A stretch of DNA of 64,000 bases, taken from positions 1 to 64,000 of the forward strand of contig JAJRXK010000069.1 of NCBI GenBank assembly GCA_024276305.1. Reading direction: 5' to 3'. Positions within the stretch are counted from its first letter, which is position 1; each line of letters opens with the position of its first letter. The translations under genes were made by a program, and so were the position numbers. Origin of the DNA: Candidatus Krumholzibacteriota bacterium. Lineage in GTDB: Bacteria > Krumholzibacteriota > Krumholzibacteriia > JAJRXK01. Below, piece after piece: positions 41,111 through 59,223 of the stretch. Under the pieces are notes generated by a model, which saw only the letters and a program-made list of their open reading frames with translations, was not told where the DNA came from and ran no database searches.

Positions 41111-42481
41111 ATGCCCCGACCACCCGACCGGCACTCCTACGCACTCTACAATGCCTGCTTCGTGCCGGTCGGACTCGCAGCCTACCATCTCGCGCGCTTC
41201 GTCTCCCCGAAGGCTCGACGCGGACTTGAAGGCAGGGTGGGGCTGTGGGATCGCCTCGCCGCCCGGAGGGAAGATCTGGAGGGGGCCGTATGGTTTCATG
41301 CCGCAAGCGTCGGGGAATACGAACAAGCGCGCCCCGTCTTGCGCGCCTTCAAAGAGGAGTGTGAGCGCAGAGGAGAGCACATTCCCACCCTCCAAACGGT
41401 ATTCAGCCCGTCCGGCTACGATTTCGCGCGCGACCGCTGCGACGCGGATGTGATCGACTACCTCCCCCTCGACACTGCGGGGGCGATGTCCCGGATGATC
41501 CAGACGATCCGGCCGCGCGCCGTGGTCTTCATGAAATTCGATTGCTGGCCCAACCTGATCTGGGCGGCACGCCGGCGCGAGGTGCCCGTGCTGCTCCTCG
41601 ACGCCACCTTGCACCGACGCAGCCGACGACTTCGACCGCCCGCTCGGACCTTCTTCCGTCGGCTCTTCGACTGCTTCGACGCAATCGGAGCCATCAGCCC
41701 AGGAGATGCGGATCGCTTTCGGTCGGAACTGGGGAGCTCCACTCCCATCGAGGTCACCGGGGACACCCGAACCGACCAAGTCGTTCACCGCTGGGAGGCC
41801 GCGGCGAACGGTCCCCTGGCCACGGCCCTGGAAGGAACCTCCTTCGACTACTTCGCGTTGGGAAGCATTTGGCCCGCGGATGAGGATCTGATTCTCACTG
41901 CAGCCCTGAAGGAGGGCCTCGCCGAGGACCGACGAGGCCTGGTGCTGGTACCCCACGAGCCCACTCCTGATACCCTCGACCGCCTCCAACGACGGTGCAG
42001 GGAATTCGGAGTCTCCCCCACCCTTCTCTCCGAACTCTTCGACTCCCAGACCCAGAACCTGCGGATCTCACCCCTCGACCAACCCGATCGATGGCGCTTC
42101 GTTCTCGTGGACTGCGTCGGGCTCCTGGCGGAGATCTACCGGGGAGTGTCCTTTGCCTACGTGGGAGGGAGTTGTAGCACCGGAGTCCACAATGTGCTCG
42201 AACCCGCAGTCTGCGGGCAGCCAGTTCTCTTCGGGCCACGCATCCACAACGCCTACGAGGCCGAGCGACTGGTCGAGATCGGCGCGGGCTTCGTCCTGAC
42301 CCACCCGGAAGAGGCTCGCGTCCGAGTCGCCGAATTCTTCGCCGAACCCCACCGCCGACGGGAATGCGGGCGTCGGGCCCAGGACTTCGTGCTTCACCAA
42401 CGGGGAGCCACCCAGGCCAGTCTGGAACTCCTCCTCGCCCATCTGGCCCCTCCCCTCTCTCCTCGACCCGCAGATCCCTGA
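41111..42481 (+). CDS. waaA: 3-deoxy-D-manno-octulosonic acid (KDO) transferase
   Basis: A 456-residue GT-B glycosyltransferase that adds KDO to lipid A precursor. Family marks are a short N-terminal membrane-associated stretch (about 8-28), VWFHAASVGEYEQARP with the catalytic glutamate (about residue 66), the middle GDTRTDQV and the donor-binding YVGGSCSTGVHNVLEPA followed by FGPRIHNAYEA. It shows that the organism makes an LPS-type outer membrane. Length is slightly above the usual 420-430. No other LPS genes are in the window. Confidence 0.92.
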   Translation: MPRPPDRHSYALYNACFVPVGLAAYHLARFVSPKARRGLEGRVGLWDRLAARREDLEGAVWFHAASVGEYEQARPVLRAFKEECERRGEHIPTLQTVFSPSGYDFARDRCDADVIDYLPLDTAGAMSRMIQTIRPRAVVFMKFDCWPNLIWAARRREVPVLLLDATLHRRSRRLRPPARTFFRRLFDCFDAIGAISPGDADRFRSELGSSTPIEVTGDTRTDQVVHRWEAAANGPLATALEGTSFDYFALGSIWPADEDLILTAALKEGLAEDRRGLVLVPHEPTPDTLDRLQRRCREFGVSPTLLSELFDSQTQNLRISPLDQPDRWRFVLVDCVGLLAEIYRGVSFAYVGGSCSTGVHNVLEPAVCGQPVLFGPRIHNAYEAERLVEIGAGFVLTHPEEARVRVAEFFAEPHRRRECGRRAQDFVLHQRGATQASLELLLAHLAPPLSPRPADP

Positions 42482-42549
42482 ATCCGTCGATACGGCGCGC
42501 CCGGACGCCGGACCGCAGTGAAGGGTTCGTTGGAGGCGGAATTCTATTC

Positions 42550-42555
42550 TATACT
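42550..42555 (+). promoter_or_regulatory. Candidate minus-10 element upstream of the radical SAM gene
   Basis: TATACT in an AT-rich island (ATTCTATTCTATACTGTG) within otherwise G+C-rich sequence, with TTCGTT 18 bases ahead (42526-42531). About 66 bases before the ATG at 42622. Confidence 0.4.
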
Positions 42556-42621
42556 GTGCCGCATCCAACGACGCCGCCTCCCCGAGGAGCGGTCCGACCA
42601 TCGCATTGCAAGGAGTCGCGC

Positions 42622-43581
42622 ATGTCGCAGCCCACCGCCGGGCCCACCCTTCGCCCCAGCACCGAAGCGCCGACGCGCTGGCGTATGCCCTACGCCGAGA
42701 CCCCCAAGTTCTTGCAAATCGAGACCATGGTCACCTGCAACGCAAAGTGTCCGTTCTGTCCGCAACACGAAATCGACCGCAATCCCAATCGGATGCACGA
42801 CGAGATGTGGAAGAAGATCATCGATGAGACCCGAGGGCTGGGGATCACCTATCGTCCCTTCTTGCAGAACGAGCCCTTCGTCGACAAGCGCATGCCCGAG
42901 ATCATGCGCTACATCCGCAAGGATCCCACCGCCAAGATCGAGTTCAACACCAACGGCAGCCTGATGACCGAGAAGCTCAATGCCGAGATTCTGGACCTCG
43001 GAATCGACATCATGCGCTTCTCGATCGATGGATTCAGCGAGGAAGTCTACGCCCCGAGCCGCGTGGGTCTGAACTACGAGCGGGTGAAGGAGCGGACCAC
43101 CCAGTTCTTGGAAATGTGGCGAGCCGGAGGCTACGACAAGGATTGCTACACCGAGGTTCGCATGATCGACATGCCCGAGAACCGCCACCAGCACGAAGCC
43201 TACCGAGCCTATTGGGAACCCCTCTGCGACGAGGTTCTCATCACCGAGCTCTACGAGTGGCCATGGCAATCCCAGACCGAAGCGGTTCGCAAACCCTGTT
43301 GGAAGATGGTCGATGCCATGTACATCTTCAGCGATGGTCGGTGCACGCTCTGCTGCTGGGATACCGTCGAGCGCGGGGTGGTCGGCGATCTGAGAGAGGC
43401 CTCTGTGCTGGAAGTCTGGAATAGCGCACAGTACGAGGCCCTTCGCACCCTGCTCAACGACGGGCGCCGGGAGCTGATCCATCTCTGCAGCAAGTGCGAC
43501 GCCTACAAGAACCACGATTTCTCCCCCTATGAAGTCCACCCGCCTCGGACCGATGTCTTGCGAGCTCGAGAGGAATCCTGA
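42622..43581 (+). CDS. Radical SAM protein with SPASM-type C-terminal cysteines
   Basis: A 319-residue radical SAM enzyme. The cluster motif CNAKCPFC (CxxxCxxC, about residues 38-45) binds the SAM-cleaving 4Fe-4S centre, with EFNTNGS and RFSIDGF as barrel landmarks. Near the C-terminus KPCWK, GRCTLCCWD and HLCSKCD form a SPASM/Twitch-like set for an extra cluster. Such enzymes modify peptides, sugars or cofactors. AAGGAG stands 6 bases before the chosen ATG. Its own promoter lies upstream, and the transglutaminase-7TM gene starts 90 bases downstream on the same strand. No precursor peptide gene is visible. Confidence 0.85.
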   Translation: MSQPTAGPTLRPSTEAPTRWRMPYAETPKFLQIETMVTCNAKCPFCPQHEIDRNPNRMHDEMWKKIIDETRGLGITYRPFLQNEPFVDKRMPEIMRYIRKDPTAKIEFNTNGSLMTEKLNAEILDLGIDIMRFSIDGFSEEVYAPSRVGLNYERVKERTTQFLEMWRAGGYDKDCYTEVRMIDMPENRHQHEAYRAYWEPLCDEVLITELYEWPWQSQTEAVRKPCWKMVDAMYIFSDGRCTLCCWDTVERGVVGDLREASVLEVWNSAQYEALRTLLNDGRRELIHLCSKCDAYKNHDFSPYEVHPPRTDVLRAREES

Positions 43582-43671: not shown

Positions 43672-45276
43672 ATGCTCGCCACACGCATCTACTGGATCCT
43701 GATGGCCCTCGCGGCCGGGATTTTCGGCTGGCGTGTGCTCAGCGAGGGCCGAGAGGCTCTTCGGATCACTCCCGCTAGCGAATACGAATTCGAACAGACC
43801 GTCGACATCGGAGCTGCCGCCGGCGACTTCAGCCTGGAGATGTTCGTTCCCGGCCCCGGTTCCCGGTTGAAGGTGCAAAACGAGAGCCTCAGCGCGGGCA
43901 AGCTGCAACTCCGGGTGGAGAGCGGAGACAGCGGCCGGAGGCTGGTGGCCACCGGACGGCGAGGAGACCTCCCGGAGACCATCGTCTACCGGGCGACCAT
44001 TCGACGCCGCAGCGTCTCGTTTCAACTGCCGGAGGACCTGCGATGGAAGGACCTCCTCAGCCAGGACTCCCTCGACTCCACGAAGTGGATTCCGTCGGGC
44101 CACCGTGAAATCCAACTCGCGACCGCTCGACTCGTCGGCTATCCCCCAGACCGAGACCTGCCTCCCTCCCCCCACGCGTGGCAGGAGTGGATGGAATCGC
44201 AGGGCATCGGGCCAGTGGACTTCGCTCGACGGGCCTTCGTCTACTGCCGAGACGAGATCCAACCGGCCGCGTTCAGCGGATCGACCGACGCCCTGACTGC
44301 GCTCCGACTCGGAGAATCGAGCTGCGGTGGGAAGTCGCGGCTCATGGCCGCCATGTGCAGGAGTGTCGGGATTCCCGCCCGCATGCTCGGCGGAGTGATC
44401 ATGGGTCAGGCCAAGAAGAAGCGAACCAGCCACGTTTGGGTGGAGGTCGGTCTGGGGGATCAGTGGGTCCCCTACGATCCCCTCAATGACCATCAGGCCG
44501 TACTCCCCGCCCACTACCTCACCCTTTACGTGGGCGACCTTCCCCTCATTCGCCACAGCCGAGGACTGGCCTTCGACTACGGCTTCCGGGCTCCGGTGGA
44601 ACGCGTTCCCATGGCCTGGACGCTCACTCCCGATGAGCAGGATGGCCGGGGAGCGGTGCCTCTCCTCCAGCGACGGCACTTTTCGGTGATACTGCTCGCG
44701 CCCTTCGCTCTGCTCTTCACTCTCTTCGTCCGGCAGGTGATCGGGATCGATGGCATCGGTGTCTTCTTCCCCGTGCTCCTCGGCTTCTGCGTCACGCAGA
44801 TCGGCTGGACCCTGTCCGGGATCCTCCTGGCGGGGACTCTGGTCTTCGGAGTGTTGATGCGCTTGCTTCTCTATCGGATCAACCTCCTTCGAGTCCCTCG
44901 GGCGGGGATCCTGATCACCTTCATCCTGGTCCTCCTGCTCGCCTTCACCATTTCGCTCGAGCGATTCGGGGTCGCGATGGGCAAGGGAGCCCTCATTCTC
45001 CCCATCGCCGCACTGGCCATGGCGGTGGAGAGGTTCACCAACGAGGCCCTCGACGGAGGAGCGGCGAAGGCCGCGAAGCTCCTCGGAGAAACCCTGATTC
45101 TCGCGGTGATCTCGGCCCTTCTCCTCATGCAACCGCTGTTCAAGCTTCTGACCGTGATGTATCCGGAAATCCTGATCGTGGTCATCGCCGAGATGCTGAT
45201 GATCGGTCAGTACCGAGGTCTGCGATTGAGGGAGCTCTGGCGATTCCGGGCCCTCCGGAAGGTGACTTCGTCGTGA
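43672..45276 (+). CDS. Transglutaminase-like protein fused to seven membrane helices (UUP1 family)
   Basis: A 534-residue inner-membrane protein. One N-terminal helix (about 6-22), a periplasmic segment with a transglutaminase-like domain (about 180-290), then about seven helices (about 345-520). The domain keeps the papain-like triad: Cys in GESSCGGKSRLM, His in TSHVWVEV and Asp in WVPYDPLND. Although the family is often described as inactive, the residues look competent. In other bacteria this protein is always near an ATP-grasp glutamate-ligase-like gene, and here that gene follows with TGATG overlap. GGGAG lies 9 bases before the ATG. I infer a role in building or recognising a peptide at the membrane. 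Confidence 0.87.
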   Translation: MLATRIYWILMALAAGIFGWRVLSEGREALRITPASEYEFEQTVDIGAAAGDFSLEMFVPGPGSRLKVQNESLSAGKLQLRVESGDSGRRLVATGRRGDLPETIVYRATIRRRSVSFQLPEDLRWKDLLSQDSLDSTKWIPSGHREIQLATARLVGYPPDRDLPPSPHAWQEWMESQGIGPVDFARRAFVYCRDEIQPAAFSGSTDALTALRLGESSCGGKSRLMAAMCRSVGIPARMLGGVIMGQAKKKRTSHVWVEVGLGDQWVPYDPLNDHQAVLPAHYLTLYVGDLPLIRHSRGLAFDYGFRAPVERVPMAWTLTPDEQDGRGAVPLLQRRHFSVILLAPFALLFTLFVRQVIGIDGIGVFFPVLLGFCVTQIGWTLSGILLAGTLVFGVLMRLLLYRINLLRVPRAGILITFILVLLLAFTISLERFGVAMGKGALILPIAALAMAVERFTNEALDGGAAKAAKLLGETLILAVISALLLMQPLFKLLTVMYPEILIVVIAEMLMIGQYRGLRLRELWRFRALRKVTSS

Positions 45277-48200
45277 TGCGATCCTGGCGCGAGTGGGGAC
45301 GAGCTCTCTGGCCCAACGACCGGATTCTGGGGATCAACCGCCGGAATCTGGACCATGTCTTCGCCGACTATCGCCCCGGCCGCTTCGCCGAACTCGACGA
45401 CAAGCTGCTCGCCAAGTCCAAGTGCGAGGCCGCGGGGATCGCCGTTCCCCGGACCATCGGGACGATCGACTCCCCCCTGGAGCTCGCGAAACTGCACGCC
45501 TGGCTCTCCACCTGCGATGAACTCGTCCTCAAGCCGGCGCGCGGGTGGGGAGGGCGTGGGATCCTGGTACTGGAGAAGCGGGGAGAGAATTTCGTCACTC
45601 CCGGAGGCAACGTGCTCTCCACCCAGGAGATCGAGGACCATGTGCGGGAGACTCTGTCCGGCAACTTCAGCCTCGACGAATCCGACGATTCCGTCCTGAT
45701 CGAAGAACGCATCCATCCCCATCAGTTCCTGCAGCTCCTCTCGCCCGACGGACTCTCCGACTTGCGCATCGTCCTGGAGAAGGGGAAGGCGCTGCAGGCC
45801 ATGCTGCGGGTGCCCACTCGAGCGTCGGACGGCAAGGCGAACCTTCACGGGGGAGGACTCGGCCTGGGCATCGACCTCGAGAGCGGTCGGGTGCGCCACG
45901 CCATCCAGCGAGATCAACCCGTGGAGTCCCACCCCGATACCGGCGTGGTCCTCGTCGGCCTGCAGGTACCGATGTGGGAGGAATGCCTCGAACTCGCCCG
46001 ACGAAGTGCGGCAGTCTATGCCGATCTCGACTACATCGGAGTGGATATCGTTCTCGACGCCCGTCGAGGCCCCCTCCTCCTCGAGGTCAATGCCCGCCCG
46101 GGCCTGGCGATCCAGCTGGCCAATGCTTCTTCTCAACCGGTGTCACCCCGGTCCAAGACCTCGGTGGGCGAGCACATCACTTTCGCCGCGACCTGGATCG
46201 TCTTCGCGGCCTTGGCCATCGGGCCCTTGGCCTTCGATCGATGGGAGCGGCGCCACACCGAGAATCAGGACCGCGTCACCGTGGTCGGCCTGACCTCATC
46301 CGGTGCCAGCATCCCGGCGACCCCACTGGAAAGCGGCGGAAGCGTCGAGTGGTCGGAAGCCGCTTCGGAGATCTCGGCCGAGAATGCGGACTTTGCCCGA
46401 GCGAAGGAACTCGCAGACGGTGGGGATCCCGACCAGGCCATCGTGTACTACACCCGGGCGGCCGCGGATTCCTCCATCGCTCCCTTTGCTCTGAACAATG
46501 TGGGACTGCTCCACCGTGAGGCGGGCCGGTTGAAGGATGCCGAGACGGCTCTGCTCAAGGCCCTGCAGGGCCATCCCGAATACGCCCGCGGTCACTACAA
46601 TCTCGGCCTCGTCCACCGAGACCTGGGAAACAAGGTGGCCGCCGAAACAGACTTTCGCATGGCCCTCGCACAGCGTCCTTCCTATGGGCGGGCCTGGGGA
46701 GAGTTGGGACAACTCCTGGTCGAACGAGGAGTGGTCGAAGAGGGCATCCGGGCCCTGAACCAAGCCATCCGCTACGAACCGACCCTGGCCGCCTACCGCA
46801 AGGTCCTCGGTCGCGCATCCCTCCAGATCCAGGACTTCGGAGCGGCCACCAAGGCCTTCCGCGAGGCCCTGGCCCTCGACCCCCGCAGCCGGGTGGCGGC
46901 CGAGGGTTGGGTACGGAGCCGATTCCTCGCCGCCGTTCACGGCGCTCCACCTCTGGCGAAGAGCACCTTGGACTCCATGTCCGAGCTCAGCGAACGCTTC
47001 GATGCTCAGAATCAGCGTCTGGAGAGCCGCCGCCTGGCGGCAGAAGTCCGGTGGCTGGCCCACGGGCCGGGACGAGCGCGGTCGATCCTGCGAGATCTTG
47101 GCACCAGTTCGGACCTCGACGCCCGTCGTCTCGCCGTGGAAGGGGATCTCGCTCTGGGCATCTGGTCCGAACGAGATGCCACGACCTTGGAGACCAACCG
47201 CATCGCGATCGACATTGCTCGCCTCGGGCGAAGCCTCGAGACCGCACGTAGCCGAGAGGAGGTCACCTCTGCCTTCCACAACCGCCCTCCCCGAGACCCG
47301 CGTCTTCGGCTGGTCCTTCTGAGACTGCAGGGAGTGAATGCCTCTGCGGCCGACCGAGAAGCGGGCCTGGCTCTGGCGACCTCGACCACCGAGGATCGGT
47401 GGATTCGAAGCTGTGCGAATTCCGAGACCGAGTTGATGCCTCCCGACTCTCTCCGACAGGAAGCCCTCCCCCTCCTGCTCCGCCGCATCGAGAGTGACGC
47501 ACCGCTTCCCCTTCCCCAGAGCTTCCTGATCTGGACCACGGCGCGTATCGCGGAACTCGAAGGCCGAGACGGAAGTCCCTGGCACGAAGCCCTGGACCGC
47601 TGGTTCCCCGATTTTCGCCCGGCGATGCTCCACCGCTTCCACGAACTCGTGGCCCAGGGGGAGGTGCGGGCTGCCCGCCGAGTGGGCCTGCGAATGTTGG
47701 CAGACGCCAGCGATCCCACCGAGATCCTGCTTCCGCTGATGCGTCTCGAGCTCGAACGAAATCGACCCACGGCCGCCCGAAGCCTCTGGAAGCGCCTGGA
47801 TACCGCATCTCGCCGCGCCCCGGAAGCCCAGATTCTCTACGCCGAACTGCTGATCGAGGAGAAGAAGCCCAAGGCGGCCACTCGCCGCCTGGACCAAGTG
47901 CTCGAACAGGTCCCCACCCATATCGAAGCTCTCTACCTCCGCGGGAAGGCGCTGGCGCTGCGGGGGAAGAAGCAGACCGCGCAGAAGTCCTTCGAGCGGG
48001 CCCTGAACGAAGCGCCGAATCGGGCCGACATCCGTTCCGCTCTCGCCCGGGTCCTCATGGACCGCCGGCAGTACCCAGCGGCGATCGAAGAGTGGAAGAA
48101 GGTCTTGGCCCTCTATCCCGTTACCGAGCCCAAGTCTTCGGCCCTCTTCAACTTGGCGCTGTCCGAGCAGAGAGCGGGGGAAATAGATGCCGCTCTCGCC

Positions 48201-48392
48201 GATTGGCAACGATTCTTGCTCGTGGATCCGTCGAATTACCGGGCCTATTACAATCTGGCCCTCGCCCAGGAAGACGCCCGCCGGATCAGCGACGCCATCC
48301 GCAGTCTACAGAAAGCTCTCGAGCTCAATCCCAACCACTCTGCCAGTTCGAAACGCCTGGCAACGCTGCAAAATGGAGGACATGCACAATGA
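45276..48392 (+). CDS. ATP-grasp (glutamate-ligase-like) protein fused to a membrane helix and TPR region
   Basis: A 1038-residue three-part protein. Residues 1-285 are an ATP-grasp ligase of the RimK/alpha-L-glutamate-ligase-like family (ILGINRRNLD, LVLKPARGWGGRGILVLE with ATP lysine, VLIEERIHPHQ, DLRIVLEKG, LLLEVNARPGLAIQLAN with Mg ligands). A membrane helix follows (about 300-320, TWIVFAALAIGPLAF). The remaining 700 residues would lie outside the cytoplasm if the single helix is inserted, and consist of TPR repeats (about 365-560 and 850-1035, e.g. ALNNVGLLHREAGRLKDAE, AYYNLALAQEDARRISDA) around a less clear middle. The usual partner ligase is about 320 residues and stands alone. ATG at 45276 overlaps the previous stop (TGATG). 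A GTG one codon earlier is also possible. Its stop overlaps the barrel gene by ATGA. Confidence 0.88.
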   Translation: MRSWREWGRALWPNDRILGINRRNLDHVFADYRPGRFAELDDKLLAKSKCEAAGIAVPRTIGTIDSPLELAKLHAWLSTCDELVLKPARGWGGRGILVLEKRGENFVTPGGNVLSTQEIEDHVRETLSGNFSLDESDDSVLIEERIHPHQFLQLLSPDGLSDLRIVLEKGKALQAMLRVPTRASDGKANLHGGGLGLGIDLESGRVRHAIQRDQPVESHPDTGVVLVGLQVPMWEECLELARRSAAVYADLDYIGVDIVLDARRGPLLLEVNARPGLAIQLANASSQPVSPRSKTSVGEHITFAATWIVFAALAIGPLAFDRWERRHTENQDRVTVVGLTSSGASIPATPLESGGSVEWSEAASEISAENADFARAKELADGGDPDQAIVYYTRAAADSSIAPFALNNVGLLHREAGRLKDAETALLKALQGHPEYARGHYNLGLVHRDLGNKVAAETDFRMALAQRPSYGRAWGELGQLLVERGVVEEGIRALNQAIRYEPTLAAYRKVLGRASLQIQDFGAATKAFREALALDPRSRVAAEGWVRSRFLAAVHGAPPLAKSTLDSMSELSERFDAQNQRLESRRLAAEVRWLAHGPGRARSILRDLGTSSDLDARRLAVEGDLALGIWSERDATTLETNRIAIDIARLGRSLETARSREEVTSAFHNRPPRDPRLRLVLLRLQGVNASAADREAGLALATSTTEDRWIRSCANSETELMPPDSLRQEALPLLLRRIESDAPLPLPQSFLIWTTARIAELEGRDGSPWHEALDRWFPDFRPAMLHRFHELVAQGEVRAARRVGLRMLADASDPTEILLPLMRLELERNRPTAARSLWKRLDTASRRAPEAQILYAELLIEEKKPKAATRRLDQVLEQVPTHIEALYLRGKALALRGKKQTAQKSFERALNEAPNRADIRSALARVLMDRRQYPAAIEEWKKVLALYPVTEPKSSALFNLALSEQRAGEIDAALADWQRFLLVDPSNYRAYYNLALAQEDARRISDAIRSLQKALELNPNHSASSKRLATLQNGGHAQ

Positions 48393-50095
48393 GTCCCGCA
48401 CCGCGATCCATGCTCGCAGGTCGCACAACGCCCCTGATCGTGACCCTCATTCTGCTGGTCGCCACGGTCGGATCCGCCCCCGCCGCGACCTCGTCGCAGA
48501 AATGGCGCCCCATCCGCCCCGAAGCGCCCGCGCAGAGGCTCCAGCTGAAGAACTTCGATCCGGCTTCGAAACCCGCAGACGAGGGTCGCACCTGGACTCG
48601 GGTTTCCGTCGGCGACACCCTCGTCTTCCGCTATCGTGGCAGCGGCCAGTTTCGCCTCGATGCCCGCCCGGTCCTGGAGGACGAGGCGGAAGAGGCCACC
48701 CTGCGCTACGGGCTCCGCTTCGGCCATGAGCCCCCGCGACGCTTTCGACGCCACAGCACATTCGGAGGGAATTACCGCATCGCGCCTCTCTCCCCATCTT
48801 CGACCATTTCCGACGCAGTGCTTCTCGGAGACCTCGATCGCAACACCATCGAGCTCTCCCCCGATCAGCAGACGATCTACTTCTTCCTGCGCAAGAAGGG
48901 CGCAAAAGAGGCCCTGGTGCGAGGGCTGGTCCGCGGCGAAGTGGAGCGTCTGAACATTGCCTACCGGGACGGGAAGAAGTCATCCGGAGGCGAGTGGTCC
49001 TTCGACGCGGCCCTTGGCGGCGCCGGCTATACCAGCAACGTCTACCTCGCGCCGAAGAACGGGGTCGCGGCCTCGGGAGCCGGGTTCTGGCCAGCCGAAG
49101 TCGATCTCCGTTACCGAAATCGGGAGTCTTTGCCCTTCCGCTTCACTGCAGACTACTCCTTCGACGGTCGCTTCTACAACGATCCCATTCTCGACGAGCG
49201 CCGCCATTCCGTGCAGCTCGAACAAGAATGGGACTTCGGACGGGCCCTGGGGATGCGCAATGTGCAATTCACTCTCAGCGAGCGCATGAAGACCAAGGAC
49301 GACACCTTCTTCGGTCGTGGTGCGACCGACGAATTCGAGACCTCCGGTCTGAACGGGCGCGTGCCCTTCGGCAATCGCTTCGACTACACCGAATGGACCG
49401 GAGAGGGTGCATTGGCCTTTCGCACCGCCGAGAACTTCGAGGTCACCACGACCTTCCGGGCTCGACGCCGCGACTACGACAATGACTATTCGGACGATCC
49501 CACGATCTATTCTCTGGATCAAAACCGATTCGAGATCGGCACTCGCCTCGCCTGGGAACTCTCGAAGAGCACTACCCTCAGCCTCGATGCGAGTATGGAA
49601 GCCCAGAACTACGACGAGAAGTTCTCTCGCGATCTCCAGGGAGTGAATGTCGTGACCGAGCCAACGCGTTTGCGGCGTTGGCCCATCGAGGTCGGGCTGC
49701 GTTATCGGCCGCGGTTGGGATTCCAGGCCCGAGCCAGCCTTGGACTTCTGGTCACTCAGGACCTCTACCAGGGCTACTGGGACCGCACATCGAGCATCTA
49801 TCGCGCCGAGCTCGGATGGAAGTTCACCCGCCGCAATCGGATCAACGCATGGGTCCGCGGCTCGAGCACCAGCTACGACTCCGCTCGAGTGGGCTATCTG
49901 CTCACGAACTCCCTGGGCGTGACCAACCCGATCCGCGACAAATCGAGTCTTCGCCTGGGCATCGAGGGCGAATACGGACTCTATCGCAACGCCGATCTCG
50001 TTCTCTCCTATTCCTACGAGAACCTCGACAACAATTCTCCTCTCTTCGCCTACCAGCGCAGCGAAGTCCTGGGAGGGATCGTGGTCAAGTACTGA
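48389..50095 (+). CDS. Predicted outer-membrane beta-barrel protein of the ATP-grasp/transglutaminase operon
   Basis: A 568-residue exported protein. Signal peptide (LIVTLILLVATVGSAPAA) and an N-terminal beta-rich domain (about 30-195, with VSVGDTLVFRYRGSGQFRLD), then alternating strands with aromatic ends (for instance FRFTADYSFDGRFYND, DLVLSYSYENLD) to a terminal SEVLGGIVVKY, ending in tyrosine as barrels do. No known family recognised. ATGA overlap with the TPR-ligase gene and GGAGG 9 bases upstream show tight coexpression. It could dock the periplasmic TPR region to the outer membrane (inference). Confidence 0.8.
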   Translation: MSPAPRSMLAGRTTPLIVTLILLVATVGSAPAATSSQKWRPIRPEAPAQRLQLKNFDPASKPADEGRTWTRVSVGDTLVFRYRGSGQFRLDARPVLEDEAEEATLRYGLRFGHEPPRRFRRHSTFGGNYRIAPLSPSSTISDAVLLGDLDRNTIELSPDQQTIYFFLRKKGAKEALVRGLVRGEVERLNIAYRDGKKSSGGEWSFDAALGGAGYTSNVYLAPKNGVAASGAGFWPAEVDLRYRNRESLPFRFTADYSFDGRFYNDPILDERRHSVQLEQEWDFGRALGMRNVQFTLSERMKTKDDTFFGRGATDEFETSGLNGRVPFGNRFDYTEWTGEGALAFRTAENFEVTTTFRARRRDYDNDYSDDPTIYSLDQNRFEIGTRLAWELSKSTTLSLDASMEAQNYDEKFSRDLQGVNVVTEPTRLRRWPIEVGLRYRPRLGFQARASLGLLVTQDLYQGYWDRTSSIYRAELGWKFTRRNRINAWVRGSSTSYDSARVGYLLTNSLGVTNPIRDKSSLRLGIEGEYGLYRNADLVLSYSYENLDNNSPLFAYQRSEVLGGIVVKY

Positions 50096-53183: not shown

Positions 53184-53215
53184 CTTGTGTATCACAAGAA
53201 CCTGGAATATATTCC
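53184..53215 (+). promoter_or_regulatory. lexA promoter with overlapping candidate LexA operator
   Basis: CTTGTG-TAT-CACAAG (53184-53198) is a perfect inverted repeat. Its TTGTGT (53185-53190) can serve as minus-35 box, with TATATT (53208-53213) as minus-10 after a 17-base spacer. The minus-10 lies in a second perfect palindrome, GGAATATATTCC (53204-53215). Transcription would begin near 53220, exactly at the lexA ATG. A repressor on the first repeat would block the promoter, as expected for autoregulation, and could also affect the divergent SDR gene. Confidence 0.65.
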
Positions 53216-53219
53216 TCAC

Positions 53220-53858
53220 ATGTCCTCTTCGAACCAAAGGCAGAAACGCAGCGGGGGACCGGTACGAGGCCATGGTGTGAGCCGCGATCTCGTCTTCCAA
53301 TTCGTGCGCGACCGTCTGGTCGCGGGCGAGCCCCCCACGATCCGTGAGGTCCAGGAAGGCCTGGGGTTCAAGGCGGTCCAGACCGTTCGAGAACACCTCA
53401 ATCATCTGGTCGAAGAAGGGCGCCTGGTGAAATTGGAAGGAGTTTCACGCGGCTATCGCCTCCCCATGGACAAGCGCACTCCCCCCACGCATCTTGTCCC
53501 GGTTCTGGGCCAAGTGCAAGCGGGAGCACCTACCCTTGCCGTCGAAGATATCGAAACCTACATCCCCGTACAATCCCACTATCCCGTCGAAGAGCTCTTT
53601 GCTTTGCGGGTGAAGGGAGAAAGCATGACCGGAGCGGGGATCTTCGACGGTGACCTCGTGGTGGTGCGCCGTCAACCCCTGGTGGTCACTGGGGAGATCG
53701 TCGTGGCCCTCGTTGGAGACGAAGCAACGGTCAAGACTCTCCGGCAGCGCCGCAAGAACTTCTACCTGCAACCCGAGAACCCCGAATTCGACCCCATCGA
53801 ACCCGAGGAATTCACTCTCCTGGGACGGGTGATCGAAATACGTCGAAATCTGGATTGA
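53220..53858 (+). CDS. lexA: LexA repressor
   Basis: A 212-residue SOS repressor/autoprotease. The N-terminal winged helix (SRDLVFQFVRDRL; PTIREVQEGLGFKAVQTVREHL, about 20-65) binds DNA. The cleavage site is Ala 101-Gly 102 in VQAGAP, and the Ser-Lys pair is Ser 135 in GESMTGAG and Lys 172 in ATVKTL. The ATG at 53220 is preferred to a GTG 11 codons upstream because that GTG lies within the operator. No Shine-Dalgarno precedes the ATG and the promoter predicts a start of transcription at it, so the message is probably leaderless. It is followed, after a 145-base gap, by the imuA-imuB-dnaE2 cassette it presumably controls. Confidence 0.93.
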   Translation: MSSSNQRQKRSGGPVRGHGVSRDLVFQFVRDRLVAGEPPTIREVQEGLGFKAVQTVREHLNHLVEEGRLVKLEGVSRGYRLPMDKRTPPTHLVPVLGQVQAGAPTLAVEDIETYIPVQSHYPVEELFALRVKGESMTGAGIFDGDLVVVRRQPLVVTGEIVVALVGDEATVKTLRQRRKNFYLQPENPEFDPIEPEEFTLLGRVIEIRRNLD

Positions 53859-53865
53859 TCCCCGG

Positions 53866-53882
53866 CCGCATGTTGCATGCGG
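53866..53882. other. Short hairpin between lexA and imuA
   Basis: CCGCATG, loop TTG, CATGCGG, 7 pairs, starting 7 bases after the lexA stop. No T-run follows, so it may attenuate rather than stop transcription into imuA. No copy of the lexA-type operator was seen in the rest of this 145-base gap. Confidence 0.4.
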
Positions 53883-54003
53883 ATTCACCGCGTCTGCTCG
53901 CGTCGAGCCTCCTCCCCTCCCGCTCGAGCTGACCGAAATCACATTCGAATTCCGCGGTCCGATGGCATCCTGCCCATCGCGAGCCGTACTTTCGGAGGAA
54001 ACC

Positions 54004-54669
54004 ATGGTCGATGCCATGGACGGCCGCGCAGCGGCGTCCACCCTGCCCCATCCCGAACCCCGTCCGGTCGTTGTCACTCCTCCCTCGGACGGAACCCCAC
54101 TTCCCGATTCTCGACCTACCTGGTCGGTCGCCACGCTGCGGGGTCGCCTCTGCGAATTGGTGAGCCACGGAAGGACTCCTCTGCTCAGCGCAGCCATGCG
54201 ACTATTGCACCAAGCGCAGTGTGAAGCACAACCGGTGGCCTGGATCGCAGCCGGCGTTGCTCCTTTCTATCCTCCCGACATGGCCGCGAGCGGCATCGAC
54301 CTCAGCGCTCTACCCGTGATTCGCACCACCGATCTCCGCCGAGGATTGCGCGTCGTCGACACCTTGCTGCGCAGCGGCGCCTTCGGACTGGTGGTTCTGG
54401 ATTTCGGAAACAATGGACCTGTTCCCATGCCCGCTCAGACTCGCTTGCTCGGATTGGTCCGCAAATACGATTGTGCCTTGCTCTTCTTGAGCCGCTCCGA
54501 AAGCAGGCAACACCGACAGGGAACTCTCGTCTCTCTGCGTGGAGAGGGACATATCGAAACAGACCAAGAGGGATGCTTTCGTCTGCACCTGGATTTCGAC
54601 CGCGACAAACGTTTCGGCCCTGGATGGAGCCATGAGGAGGTCTTCCGTGGACCGCATGGCCTGTATTGA
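54004..54669 (+). CDS. imuA: ImuA-like RecA-fold protein of the mutagenesis cassette
   Basis: A 221-residue protein with a degenerate RecA/SulA-like fold: WSVATLRGRLCELVSHGRTPLLS, a central GLVVLDFGNN strand and LLFLSRSES near the end. No Walker A motif is present. In proteobacteria and actinobacteria ImuA and ImuB assist the DnaE2 polymerase in damage-induced translesion synthesis. Assigned chiefly from being the first gene of the imuA-imuB-dnaE2 order. GGAGGA lies 4 bases before the ATG. Overlaps imuB by 23 bases. Confidence 0.82.
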   Translation: MVDAMDGRAAASTLPHPEPRPVVVTPPSDGTPLPDSRPTWSVATLRGRLCELVSHGRTPLLSAAMRLLHQAQCEAQPVAWIAAGVAPFYPPDMAASGIDLSALPVIRTTDLRRGLRVVDTLLRSGAFGLVVLDFGNNGPVPMPAQTRLLGLVRKYDCALLFLSRSESRQHRQGTLVSLRGEGHIETDQEGCFRLHLDFDRDKRFGPGWSHEEVFRGPHGLY

Positions 54670-56131
54670 ATTCCCCGCTTTGGCACTGCAGCTCCTCCTG
54701 CGCGATCACGAAGACTGGAGAGAACATCCCGTAGCCGTGATCGATCGGGACAAAGCGCAGGCAACTCTACTCGAGGTGAACCGCCATGCTGCGGCCGCAC
54801 GAGTTCTTCCTGGGCAACGCTATGCCACCGCCTTGTCCCTCTGTGCAGGATTACGTGCGGAGGTCATCGGCGCCTCCGTCCTGCAGCGAACTACCGATGA
54901 CATCCTCATGGCTTTGCGCCACTTCAGCTCCGGCGTCGAAGCCAGCGCAGCAGAACCAGGCGTATTCTGGGTCGATGCCAGCGGGCTCTCGCTGCTCTAC
55001 CCATCCCTCGATGATTGGGCCGGCTCCATACTTCGTGAGTTCGACGAACGCGGCCTCTACGCTCGGGTGGTGGTCGGATTCACCCACTTCGGCACACGAG
55101 TGCTCACCCGCAATGGGAAACGGATACAGATCTTCGATCGACGTGATGTGGAGCTCATCCACGCACATCGCATCGACATGAGTCGACTGCCTCTCGCTCC
55201 ACCACTCCTCGAAGTCTTCCACAAACTCGGCGTGCAGACCCTGGCCGATTTTGCGCGATTACCCGCAGCTGGCATTCGCCGACGATTCGACATGAACGTT
55301 TGTCGCCTGCATCAGATGGCAACCGATGATTTGTGGTCTCCACTGCAACCTCTACCGCCTCTGGACCCGCTTCAATTTGCCGAACACCTCGACTACAACG
55401 AACGAGATCTCGACAGCTTGCTGCGCCGCCTCGAAGAGCACCTCATCGCTCTACGATCCAAGCTACTGCAACGTCGACGTCTCCTGAGTTCCCTGCAGTT
55501 GCGACTGCGACTCGAGGACGGAACCCAACACGAGGAGCGTCTGCAACCAGCCTATCCCACCTTGGATCTCGACCAGGTGATGCAACTGTTGCGACTGCGA
55601 CTCCAGGGATGCGATCTGAGAGCAGGGGTGATCGGGGTTGCCATGGAGGTCGAAGAGCGAAGGCCCTCCCAGCAGCAGATGGAGCTCTTTTCCGCTCATG
55701 CACGGCGTGATCTCACCGCCGCCCACCGTGCCTTCGCCCGCATTCGAGCCGAGTTCGGCGACCATGCGGTGCAGATCGCATCCCTCCGGGACGGACACCT
55801 TCCCCAGGCCCGCTTCACTTGGACACGGCTGGGGTCTCTGTGCGAGGCTCATCCCCGTCTGGTGCAGACCCCGCATTTACTGCGCCGCATCGCCGATCAT
55901 CCCATCGTTGTCTCTTCTCCTCGGCGCAAGGAACCCGACGGTTGGCTCATTGCCGGTCTCGGTGGAGGAGCAGTCGAAGAGCTGCGCGGACCCTACGTAG
56001 TCTCGGGAGGATGGTGGGCACGTGACATTCATCGTGAATCCCACTACGTGCGCACTTCCCGTAGTGGGTGGTTGTGGGTCTACTTCGATCGCCGTCGTCG
56101 ACGCTGGTATCTACAGGGGTCCATCGAATGA
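54647..56131 (+). CDS. imuB: ImuB, catalytically inactive Y-family polymerase-like protein
   Basis: A 494-residue Y-family homologue that acts as an adaptor in SOS mutagenesis. The first catalytic motif, normally an Asp-rich D-x-D-x-F-F, reads CIEFPALAL, and the second has VFWVDASGLSLL without the acidic pair, so it should not polymerise. The helix-hairpin-helix/thumb region (LGVQTLADFARLPAAGIRRRF) is kept. QQQMELF (about 340) looks like the beta-clamp-binding motif that recruits the machinery. The C-terminal 140 residues are the ImuB-specific domain. I chose the GTG at 54647 because AGGAGG lies 6 bases upstream. ATG codons at 54632 and 54656 are alternatives. Overlaps imuA, and its stop overlaps dnaE2 by ATGA. 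Confidence 0.88.
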   Translation: MDRMACIEFPALALQLLLRDHEDWREHPVAVIDRDKAQATLLEVNRHAAAARVLPGQRYATALSLCAGLRAEVIGASVLQRTTDDILMALRHFSSGVEASAAEPGVFWVDASGLSLLYPSLDDWAGSILREFDERGLYARVVVGFTHFGTRVLTRNGKRIQIFDRRDVELIHAHRIDMSRLPLAPPLLEVFHKLGVQTLADFARLPAAGIRRRFDMNVCRLHQMATDDLWSPLQPLPPLDPLQFAEHLDYNERDLDSLLRRLEEHLIALRSKLLQRRRLLSSLQLRLRLEDGTQHEERLQPAYPTLDLDQVMQLLRLRLQGCDLRAGVIGVAMEVEERRPSQQQMELFSAHARRDLTAAHRAFARIRAEFGDHAVQIASLRDGHLPQARFTWTRLGSLCEAHPRLVQTPHLLRRIADHPIVVSSPRRKEPDGWLIAGLGGGAVEELRGPYVVSGGWWARDIHRESHYVRTSRSGWLWVYFDRRRRRWYLQGSIE

Positions 56132-59100
56132 CCGATCCCCTTTACGCGCCGCTCTGGTGCAAGAGCAATTACTCCTTCTTGGAGGGGGCTAGCCACCCTG
56201 AAGAGTTGGTCGAAGAAGCGCAGATCCTGGGCTTGCAGCACCTCGCCCTCACCGATCGTGATGGAGTATATGGAGCGGTGCGCGCGCACATGGCGGCCCG
56301 CAACACCGATGTACACCTCGTCCTGGGAAGCGAACTCACGATGGAGGACGGAACCACCCTCGTGGTTCTCGCCGAGAATCGAGAGGGGTGGCGACAACTC
56401 TGCCGATTGATCAGCCGAGGGCGGCTGCGGTGCGAGAAAGGACATTCCCAACTGCACTGGCGTGAAGTATGTGAACATTCCGATGGACTGATCGCTCTGT
56501 GGGGGGGGCGAAACAGTCATCTGGTAGCGGAGGCCGATCCTCTGTTCATTGCGCGCCAACTTCGGGATGCCTTCGGCAATCGTCTCTACGCTCTGATCGC
56601 GCGACACCACGAAGCCACGGAAGTTCGACAGGAGCGTCGTCTGCGAGAGCGCGCTCAGCGCTATGGATTGGAAACCGTCGCCACCACCGAAGTGCTTTAC
56701 CATCATCCTTCACGTCGCGATTTGCAGGACACGCTCACCTGCATTCGCCATCACTGCACCCTGACCACCGCCGGCACACGCACTCATCCCAATGCTCAAC
56801 ATGGACTGCTTTCTCCTCTGCGCATGCGGATGCTCTTTCATGACGACCCTTCCTCCGTGGCCCGTAGCCATGATCTGGCACAGCGCTGTCAGTTTTCACT
56901 CGCTGACCTTCATTACCGCTATCCTTCTGAACTTCTTCCCGATGGACGGAGGCACCATGAACATCTCCGCACCCTGACCTATGAGGGGGCGCGTGAGCGA
57001 TATCCACGGGGCATGTCCTCAACCGTGCGGCATCAGCTCGACCGGGAGCTTCTTCTGATTCGAGAGCTCCAGTACGAAGGCTACTTTCTCACCATGCATG
57101 AGATCGTGCGATTCTGCCGGCAGGAACAGATTCTGTGTCAGGGCCGCGGATCCGCGGCGAATTCCGCAGTGTGCTATTGCCTGGGCATCACGGCCATCGA
57201 TCCGGTGCGCATGGGCCTGCTCTTCGAGCGATTTCTTTCGAAGGAGCGTTCCGAGCCTCCCGATATCGACCTCGACATCCAGAACGACCGGCGCGAGGAG
57301 GTCATTCAGCACGTCTACCAAAAATACGGCCGCACTCATGCGGCAATGGTGGCCAATGTAGTACGTTATCGCTCGCGTTCTGCGGTACGGGAGATCGGCA
57401 AGGTTCTGGACCTCCCCGAAGTTGCCGTCGATCGGCTCGCCAATCTGCTTTCCTACGACCAACCCATCACCCCCGAGCTCCTCACCGGAGCCGGCTTCGA
57501 TGTGCAGAGCAGTATTCACCAACACCTCCTGCGGTTGACGGTCGCGATTCAGGACTTTCCCCGGCATCTCTCCATCCATCCCGGCGGATTCCTTCTGGGT
57601 CACGAGCCCGTGCATGACCTCGTGCCCATCGAGAATGCGACCATGGAGAATCGGACCGTCATTCAATGGGACAAGAACGATATCGAAGACCTTGGCCTGT
57701 TCAAAGTAGATCTCCTGGGGCTTGGCATTCTCACCGTGGTGGACAAATCACTGCGCCTGCTGCGCGAGCACCAACAGATCGACCTCTGCATGGCCACGAT
57801 CCCCGTCGACGACGAAGCCACCTTCGCGCAGATTCGACAGGGCGATACCGTGGGCGTATTCCAAATCGAAAGCCGGGCGCAAATGGCCATGCTCCCGCGA
57901 CTCGAGCCACGCACCTGGTACGACTTGGTCATCGAGATCAGCATCGTCAGGCCCGGACCCATCACCGGAGGCATGGTCCACCCCTACCTCCGACGACGAA
58001 ATGGCGAGGAAGCGGTGGACTACCCCCACCCCTGTCTCGAACCCATCCTGCAGAAGACCCTGGGGATTCCCCTCTTCCAGGAACAGGTCATGCAGCTCGC
58101 CATGGCCGCCGCCGACTACACGCCAGGAGAAGCCGATCAGTTGAGACGCGACATGGCTGCCTGGCGTATCGCCGGCAAACTCGAGCGTCACCGCGATCGC
58201 TTGGTGGCCCGCATGACCGCCAAAGGGATCGAACGAGCCTTCGCAGAGCGGGTCTTCGAGCAGATCCGGGGATTCGGAGAGTATGGATTCCCCGAGAGCC
58301 ACGCCGCAAGCTTCGCGTTGATCGCCTGGGCCACAGCTTGGTTGAAGCAGAATCATCCGGCAACGTTCTTGTGCGCCCTACTCAATTCCCAACCCATGGG
58401 ATTCTATTCTCCATCTACTCTGATCGACGATGCGCACCGACACGGGGTAACTCTATTTCCCATCGACGTTCAAGAGAGCGACTGGGATTGTACTCTGGAA
58501 GCGCTGGCCTCCGGAGATTTCGCGGTGCGGATGGGCTTGCGCTACATCAAGGGATTTCGCCGTGAGCAAGCCCAACGGATCCTCGACGCCCGAATCTCTC
58601 GTGCATTTCGGAGCATCGAAGATCTTGCGCGGCGCAGCGGGCTCGAACGTAGCGTGTTGTCACGCCTGGCGGAGGCCGGAGCCTTCGGAAGCCTCGATGG
58701 TCGCCGACGCAACGCCCTCTGGCAGGCGCGTGGATTCGCCCATGTCGCGAAGGAGACCCTCCGCCTTCAGGATCGCGAGAAGTCGGTGCCACTCCCCGAT
58801 CTCAGCGAGTTCGAGACCATCGAGTGGGACTATGCCACCGGAGGACACAGTGTACGCGGGCACCCGTTGCTGCCTCTGCGAGAGGAATTGCAACGCATGG
58901 GGATCCCCCCTGCCCGATGCCTGAATGCCCAGTCCAACGGCGCCCATGTCCAGTACGTCGGTATGGTGATCAATCGCCAACGTCCCAAGACCGCGGGGGG
59001 AGTGGTCTTCATGACTCTCGAAGACGAGACTGGTTTCGTGAATCTTGTGGTCTGGCGCCAAGTTTTTGCACAATATGCCGCGTTGGCCAAAACCGCATCG

Positions 59101-59223
59101 GTCCTCGGAGTCCGCGGCAGAATTCAGAGCCACTCGGGAGTGACCCACCTCGTCGCCGAAGAGTTCTTCGAACCACAACTCAGTCTGCGCCCGGAGCGGC
59201 GGCGCAGTCGAGATTTTCGCTGA
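56128..59223 (+). CDS. dnaE2: Error-prone DNA polymerase DnaE2 (ImuC)
   Basis: A 1031-residue C-family polymerase for translesion synthesis. The N-terminal PHP domain starts at YAPLWCKSNYSFLEGASHPEE. The palm has QGRGSAANSAVCY and the catalytic PPDIDLDI. The fingers include RPGPITGGMVHPYLRR. A C-terminal OB domain (about 920-1000) contains GGVVFMTLEDETGFVNLVVW. It is shorter than DnaE1 and lacks its tau-binding tail, as DnaE2 proteins do. The start at 56128 overlaps the imuB stop (ATGA), with ACAGGGG 9 bases upstream. Last gene of the SOS cassette. Confidence 0.95.
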   Translation: MTDPLYAPLWCKSNYSFLEGASHPEELVEEAQILGLQHLALTDRDGVYGAVRAHMAARNTDVHLVLGSELTMEDGTTLVVLAENREGWRQLCRLISRGRLRCEKGHSQLHWREVCEHSDGLIALWGGRNSHLVAEADPLFIARQLRDAFGNRLYALIARHHEATEVRQERRLRERAQRYGLETVATTEVLYHHPSRRDLQDTLTCIRHHCTLTTAGTRTHPNAQHGLLSPLRMRMLFHDDPSSVARSHDLAQRCQFSLADLHYRYPSELLPDGRRHHEHLRTLTYEGARERYPRGMSSTVRHQLDRELLLIRELQYEGYFLTMHEIVRFCRQEQILCQGRGSAANSAVCYCLGITAIDPVRMGLLFERFLSKERSEPPDIDLDIQNDRREEVIQHVYQKYGRTHAAMVANVVRYRSRSAVREIGKVLDLPEVAVDRLANLLSYDQPITPELLTGAGFDVQSSIHQHLLRLTVAIQDFPRHLSIHPGGFLLGHEPVHDLVPIENATMENRTVIQWDKNDIEDLGLFKVDLLGLGILTVVDKSLRLLREHQQIDLCMATIPVDDEATFAQIRQGDTVGVFQIESRAQMAMLPRLEPRTWYDLVIEISIVRPGPITGGMVHPYLRRRNGEEAVDYPHPCLEPILQKTLGIPLFQEQVMQLAMAAADYTPGEADQLRRDMAAWRIAGKLERHRDRLVARMTAKGIERAFAERVFEQIRGFGEYGFPESHAASFALIAWATAWLKQNHPATFLCALLNSQPMGFYSPSTLIDDAHRHGVTLFPIDVQESDWDCTLEALASGDFAVRMGLRYIKGFRREQAQRILDARISRAFRSIEDLARRSGLERSVLSRLAEAGAFGSLDGRRRNALWQARGFAHVAKETLRLQDREKSVPLPDLSEFETIEWDYATGGHSVRGHPLLPLREELQRMGIPPARCLNAQSNGAHVQYVGMVINRQRPKTAGGVVFMTLEDETGFVNLVVWRQVFAQYAALAKTASVLGVRGRIQSHSGVTHLVAEEFFEPQLSLRPERRRSRDFR

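Follow-up and report, generated by a model that had tools for sequence, protein, structure and literature searches.

An ATP-grasp ligase fused to tetratricopeptide repeats in Krumholzibacteriota belongs to a widespread sister of the rlo system with an outer-membrane barrel partner

We analysed the first 64,000 nucleotides of contig JAJRXK010000069.1 (assembly GCA_024276305.1; hereinafter designated the window) from a member of the phylum Krumholzibacteriota, whose genome is 3.55 Mb in size and 97.9% complete, and focused on an operon of three + strand genes. The genes are joined by a TGATG overlap at 45274-45278 and an ATGA overlap at 48389-48392, and the coordinates, order and overlaps given in a first-pass annotation of the sequence are right. 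The operon encodes a transglutaminase-seven-transmembrane (7TM) protein, a protein in which an ATP-grasp ligase is fused through a transmembrane (TM) helix to tetratricopeptide repeats (TPR), and an outer-membrane barrel. Scans for promoters and terminators around the operon returned nothing beyond chance level.

Table 1 Features of the three-gene operon (window positions)
Feature	Position	Strand	Evidence
Gene 1: inner-membrane TM helix, beta-sandwich, transglutaminase and 7TM, 534 aa	43672..45276	+	profile matches, AlphaFold2
Periplasmic part of gene 1: beta-sandwich (residues 34-112) and transglutaminase fold (145-313)	43771..44610	+	AlphaFold2, Foldseek
Predicted catalytic Cys218 (SSCGGKSR)	44323..44325	+	invariant in both alignments of relatives
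Predicted catalytic His254 (TSHVWVE)	44431..44433	+	invariant in both alignments of relatives
Predicted third triad residue Asp269 (WVPYDPLN)	44476..44478	+	Cys or Gly instead in part of family
7TM domain of gene 1 (residues 334-533)	44671..45270	+	PF14402, model helices
Gene 2: ATP-grasp ligase, TM helix and TPR fusion, 1038 aa from ATG 45276	45276..48392	+	profile matches
ATP-grasp domain of gene 2 (residues 38-287), cytoplasmic	45384..46133	+	PF14397 6.9e-63
TM helix between ligase and TPR, gene 2 (about residues 303-321)	46179..46235	+	hydrophobic stretch aligned across all fused proteins
TPR region of gene 2 (about residues 372-1026), predicted periplasmic	46386..48350	+	PF07719, PF00515, PF13432, PF14559, others
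Gene 3: outer-membrane barrel protein, 568 aa, hydrophobic signal-like N-terminus	48389..50095	+	profiles, AlphaFold2
N-terminal beta-sandwich of gene 3 (residues 70-192)	48596..48964	+	model; alignment
Beta-barrel of gene 3, 16 strands (residues 201-567)	48989..50089	+	AlphaFold2 model

The gene 1 product matches PF01841 (1.5e-18) and PF14402 (1.3e-30) in profile searches and scores 117 bits against the NCBIfam RloB model, for which the cut-off is 900. Its AlphaFold2 model, computed from an alignment of relatives, has a mean pLDDT (predicted local distance difference test) of 91.1 and places a TM helix at residues 2-30, ahead of the beta-sandwich, the transglutaminase domain and the membrane helices. 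The best Foldseek match is 3isr, a putative cysteine protease (E 1.5e-14, TMt 0.71), followed by TgpA (6g4h, 1.0e-4); the significant matches are all transglutaminase-fold or cysteine-protease structures, none of them covering the 7TM part, and the ectodomain fold also matches the PeiP/PeiW endo-isopeptidases. By sequence, the PDB holds no solved relative of the transglutaminase-7TM protein or of the barrel, and the sole matches to the ligase are RimK-type proteins. Gene 2, which could alternatively start at GTG 45273, matches TIGR02291 (1.7e-80) in addition to PF14397, and its TPR part of about 670 residues shows strong TPR matches spanning residues 375-1022. The model of gene 3 has a mean pLDDT of 79.7, mostly above 90 in the barrel part, where the strand number of 16 is our own count from the DSSP line; its profile matches are marginal for PF10082 (BBP2_2; 23.9 bits against a cut-off of 23.7) and below threshold for EpsL (23.1 bits against 275).

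The fusion of ligase and TPR represents one lineage's variant of a four-gene system that is widespread. PF14402 is present in 8 of 80 Krumholzibacteriota genomes searched, and five carry the fusion (the window genome, G007, G008, G066 and G053, where its remainder is masked by N). The same fusion is read at loci L014, L015 and L016 and, up to masked bases, at L019/L024. Since five genomes share it, and the fused proteins fall into one clade (five rows, support 100), the assembly error that the first-pass annotation had named as a danger is ruled out and the fusion is genuine. Two further genomes (G058 and G059) have the modules as separate genes in unchanged order, namely transglutaminase-7TM, an ATP-grasp protein of 301-304 residues, a TM-TPR protein of 520 residues and a barrel of about 390 residues. 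The N-terminal beta-sandwich of gene 3 is present in the fused lineage and absent from the shorter barrels of the aligned separate-gene relatives. In the eighth genome (G001), the 7TM is fused to another type of ATP-grasp and lacks the transglutaminase; at L020 (7147-9117), a PF14402-like 7TM domain is fused to a different ATP-grasp, D-Ala-D-Ala-ligase-like by eye, again without a transglutaminase, so that this phylum holds a further architecture of the 7TM family.

To what extent the arrangement recurs is given by a scan of 84,980 species genomes, with patterns that contained the Cys motif of the transglutaminase and not the His, from which 80 loci were kept. The loci span about 14 phyla, most of them coming from metagenome-assembled genomes, and single-phylum placements may reflect binning error. 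An ATP-grasp gene lies downstream of the transglutaminase-7TM gene within 1,500 bases at 77 of 82 loci (the 80, the window and L015). The gene after the ligase is usually a TPR gene, and 58 of the 70 separate TPR genes encode a hydrophobic stretch near the N-terminus. A barrel match follows the TPR gene at 44 of the 59 loci that have at least 1,300 bases beyond it, so that TPR and barrel are conserved beside the ligase; absence of the barrel there would, for the first-pass annotation, have refuted its reading. The three-gene order that it proposed to seek in relatives is found as the same modules, in the same order, in distant phyla, a recurrence far beyond chance. None of the catalytic-type residues of the ATP-grasp domain (K, E, R, D, E, N, R) varies among all 83 relatives and all 14 RloC proteins compared. 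A single reading frame holds both the transglutaminase-7TM and the ATP-grasp part in Alphaproteobacteria and some Gammaproteobacteria. That separate lineages have joined the parts in two distinct combinations supports the notion that they work together.

The same two families, in the same order, make up part of the rlo operon of Pseudomonas aeruginosa, and the first-pass annotation had recognised the two as widespread partners. There, RloB is an inactive transglutaminase-7TM protein, RloC an ATP-grasp protein and RloA a secreted retropepsin (PMC12239564), and, as in the window, a PF14402 7TM protein precedes an ATP-grasp protein of TIGR02291 kind in overlapping or adjacent genes. The system described here differs in the state of the transglutaminase. 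The window protein keeps Cys218, His254 and Asp269, a complete triad of the transglutaminase catalytic type, whereas the catalytic Cys and His are missing from all 20 RloB proteins examined, and the first-pass annotation is corrected on this point. All relatives read keep the Cys and the His, with Asp, Cys or Gly as the third residue, although retention of the Cys among the 80 scanned loci is partly selected, the Cys motif being in the scan pattern. Four new-type proteins found by family search and with no pattern (L142, L143, L145 and L148, of which L143 and L145 lie in genomes already reached by the pattern scan) keep all three residues. Judged by these residues, the gene 1 transglutaminase is apparently of the working type and not of the inactive RloB-like type. 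RloB proteins, which account for most of the PF14402 matches in 26 of 143 Gammaproteobacteria genomes sampled, form one clade apart from the new type with support 100.

The partners differ as well. At 14 of 14 rlo loci read at length, a retropepsin gene lies beside RloB and the ATP-grasp gene on the opposite side, and none of these loci has a TPR or barrel gene. By contrast, the new type adds TM-TPR and outer-membrane barrel genes and has no linked retropepsin. The retropepsin reported missing by the first-pass annotation is indeed so: no PF05618 match is found in the window genome, and none occurs near the 80 loci in the DNA fetched around them. The ligase also stays below the TIGR02291 cut-off of 314 bits, with 274 for the window protein and 253-300 for the relatives tested, compared with 458 and 466 for two RloC proteins. 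Because three defining features of rlo thus fail (retropepsin, dead transglutaminase and TIGR02291 cut-off), we set the system apart from plain rlo: it is a widespread sister, with the same ligase and 7TM families and a different catalytic state and different partners. That it might instead be an rlo operon of the known type, with a relocated retropepsin and, as barrel gene, an unrelated chance neighbour, is highly improbable; a PF05618 gene does occur somewhere in 14 of the 50 genomes with the new type, but the other 36 are devoid of any match, and the separate RloB clade and the linkage of the barrel already contradict it. In our sample, live-type transglutaminases go without a linked retropepsin and dead ones go with it, a single evolutionary contrast that suggests, though it does not prove, a substitution of one enzyme for the other. 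Two PF14402 proteins of Gammaproteobacteria (L213 in G184 and L214 in G260) lack both the catalytic residues and an adjacent ATP-grasp gene, L214 being adjoined by a divergent retropepsin gene, and may constitute a third type.

Our leading, still tentative, explanation is a trans-envelope apparatus, sister to Pseudomonas RloBC, in which an amino-acyl or peptide product would be made in the cytoplasm, processed in the periplasm and delivered from TPR to barrel. In the cytoplasm, the ATP-grasp ligase would couple amino acids, or else a carboxylate to a small amine, and the 7TM protein would receive the product and either carry it across the inner membrane or present it there. With its Cys and His, the transglutaminase domain in the periplasm would cut the product or transfer it to an acceptor, and a TPR rod anchored in the inner membrane would lead onward to the outer-membrane barrel, which may export or anchor it. 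In Krumholzibacteriota, ligase and TPR rod have merged into one protein, and this tie between a cytoplasmic ligase and a predicted periplasmic TPR argues for the trans-envelope apparatus put forward by the first-pass annotation. The explanation is supported by the conserved operon order across phyla, by Rosetta-type fusions of both kinds (ligase with TPR, transglutaminase-7TM with ligase), and by the invariant ligase residues together with the retained Cys and His. A P. aeruginosa mutant that lacks the RloA peptidases is rescued when rloB or rloC is deleted as well (PMC12239564), which fits RloBC making a product that RloA removes.

Part of the same evidence is shared by a reading without export. 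The ligase product would be a small group, amino-acyl or peptide, which the transglutaminase would attach to an outer-membrane protein, to lipid or to peptidoglycan, and the TPR/barrel pair would serve as tether or acceptor linking the envelope layers. The ectodomain matches to TgpA and PeiP/PeiW agree with such tailoring, as do the altered cell shape and antibiotic sensitivity of rlo mutants (PMC12239564). In Shewanella, losing an inactive-transglutaminase-7TM protein raises vesicle output and changes vesicle number and size (PMC12096838), an observation that also supports the delivery route. A 16-stranded barrel with similarity to EpsL and PgaA, however, exceeds the needs of an anchor, and we regard tailoring without export as unlikely. 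The route from TPR to barrel is ranked first because of the anatomy, the published rlo genetics and the barrel similarity, combined with the role of the TPR in PgaA, where it binds the polymer and, according to a published proposal, directs it towards the porin (PMC9384988).

The barrel similarity in question is that EpsL is matched by 8 and PgaA by 2 of 27 barrel relatives, in each case weakly, both being outer-membrane proteins of exopolysaccharide systems. The synthase-dependent secretion systems (PgaA/PgaB for poly-N-acetylglucosamine (PNAG), Pel, alginate and cellulose) likewise place a periplasmic TPR and an outer-membrane barrel behind synthesis at the inner membrane; here an ATP-grasp ligase and a 7TM transglutaminase stand in place of the glycosyltransferase, and the TPR part either has its anchor on the inner-membrane side or belongs to the ligase protein. 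An unlikely extension of the delivery route is a system that would secrete an amino-acid polymer across both membranes, by ATP-grasp synthesis, transglutaminase processing and export through TPR and barrel, and would do for peptides what the Pel, PNAG and cellulose systems do for their polymers. Alternatively, the ATP-grasp protein could add amino acids to a sugar or lipid-linked glycan that the TPR/barrel pair exports as exopolysaccharide. Its best Pfam family, PF14397, is named 'sugar-transfer associated ATP-grasp', and the barrel similarity fits equally; yet the conserved gene set of the relatives contains no inner-membrane glycosyltransferase synthase, no glycosyltransferase recurs in the neighbourhood, and a Kdo-transferase-like gene upstream in the window (PF04413, E 2e-43; 41111-42481, two genes before the operon) was not seen to recur beside relatives, all of which makes this alternative improbable.

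Export of proteins has also been considered: secreted proteins would be trimmed or cross-linked by the transglutaminase, working as a cysteine protease, and would leave through the TPR/barrel pair at the outer membrane. The closest solved fold, 3isr, is consistent with it, and gene 2 matches the Slam TPR model weakly; TPR/barrel pairs of the DUF560/Slam systems export proteins. Such a system would leave the invariant, always linked ATP-grasp ligase unexplained, no substrate gene is common to the loci, and we consider it quite improbable.

Comparison with other ligase systems places the operon further. RimK/RimB, the ribosomal S6 glutamate ligase and its retropepsin, share the ATP-grasp ligase superfamily, but they have no membrane, TPR or barrel partner and their target is cytoplasmic. 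The poly-gamma-glutamate synthase PgsBCA/CapBCA similarly combines an amino-acid ligase with a multi-pass membrane partner, and CapB is a Mur-type ligase, not an ATP-grasp one. Homology of the 7TM to CapC/PgsC looked promising by eye and was not significant in hhalign (P about 0.002 to 0.009 in the best comparisons, the best being 0.0023, with reversed controls of about 0.3 to 0.6, 0.44 for the best comparison); other subsets were weaker, CapC has no PDB match, and tandem CapC proteins of Myxococcota provided no bridge, leaving a lead only. In those proteins (L192 to L198), about 300 soluble residues follow two tandem CapC domains at the C-terminal end, which is unusual for the membrane subunit of a poly-glutamate synthase. 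TgpA of P. aeruginosa is likewise an inner-membrane protein with a periplasmic transglutaminase fold; its membrane part differs, and it is not known to be linked to a ligase, TPR or barrel gene.

Several observations weigh against the delivery route. Some family members have Cys or Gly as the third triad residue. At 15 of the 59 testable loci, no barrel match adjoins the TPR gene (eight in Hyphomonadaceae, the rest in Planctomycetota, Acidobacteriota and single others). The diversity of the barrel precludes naming it, its fold neighbours being generic porins, and the conserved set in the neighbourhoods of relatives includes no polymerase-like or sugar transferase gene. Sequence and models establish the modules, their order and the conservation of their residues, whereas the topology, the successive steps, the peptide nature of the product and its export by the barrel are what we infer.

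The literature covered describes rloABC (PMC12239564) and the vesicle screen (PMC12096838), and we found no paper on a form with TPR and barrel partners; the amidoligase survey of Iyer et al. 2009 was outside the comparison and may hold an earlier mention. The first-pass view of the form as undescribed stands to that extent, although the form is not peculiar to this genome. In P. aeruginosa, the rlo operon governs osmotic tolerance, biofilm, cell shape and drug sensitivity. A sister system that keeps the residues RloB lost and adds parts reaching the outer membrane offers a way to find the product and the reaction, and would give many phyla, most of which lack genetics, a further envelope machine. 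The idea that transglutaminase and retropepsin replace each other is directly testable.

No extra gene common to all loci was found in the neighbourhoods, and CarboxypepD_reg and YfiO/TPR_6 proteins recur in some phyla only. CarboxypepD_reg proteins adjoin the operon in Krumholzibacteriota, Zixibacteria, Calditrichota and Bacteroidota (L017 14889-16829; L058 8307-9890; L050 7203-8975; L055 14987-15694). TPR_6/YfiO repeats are present in some of these proteins and a Por-secretion tail in some, and they may represent additional partners or cargo. Myxococcota have a YfiO/TPR_6-type gene inserted between the TM-TPR gene and the barrel (L054 8245-9348; L078 5142-6530; L090 14424-15662). Immediately upstream of the operon in the window, a radical SAM/SPASM protein is encoded on the same strand at 42364-43581, ending 91 bases before gene 1 and probably starting inside the listed open reading frame; its recurrence upstream in relatives was not seen. 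Further downstream, at 53187-59223, a putative mutagenesis cassette of lexA, imuA, imuB and dnaE2-like genes, assigned by eye from the translations only, runs in a row on the + strand.

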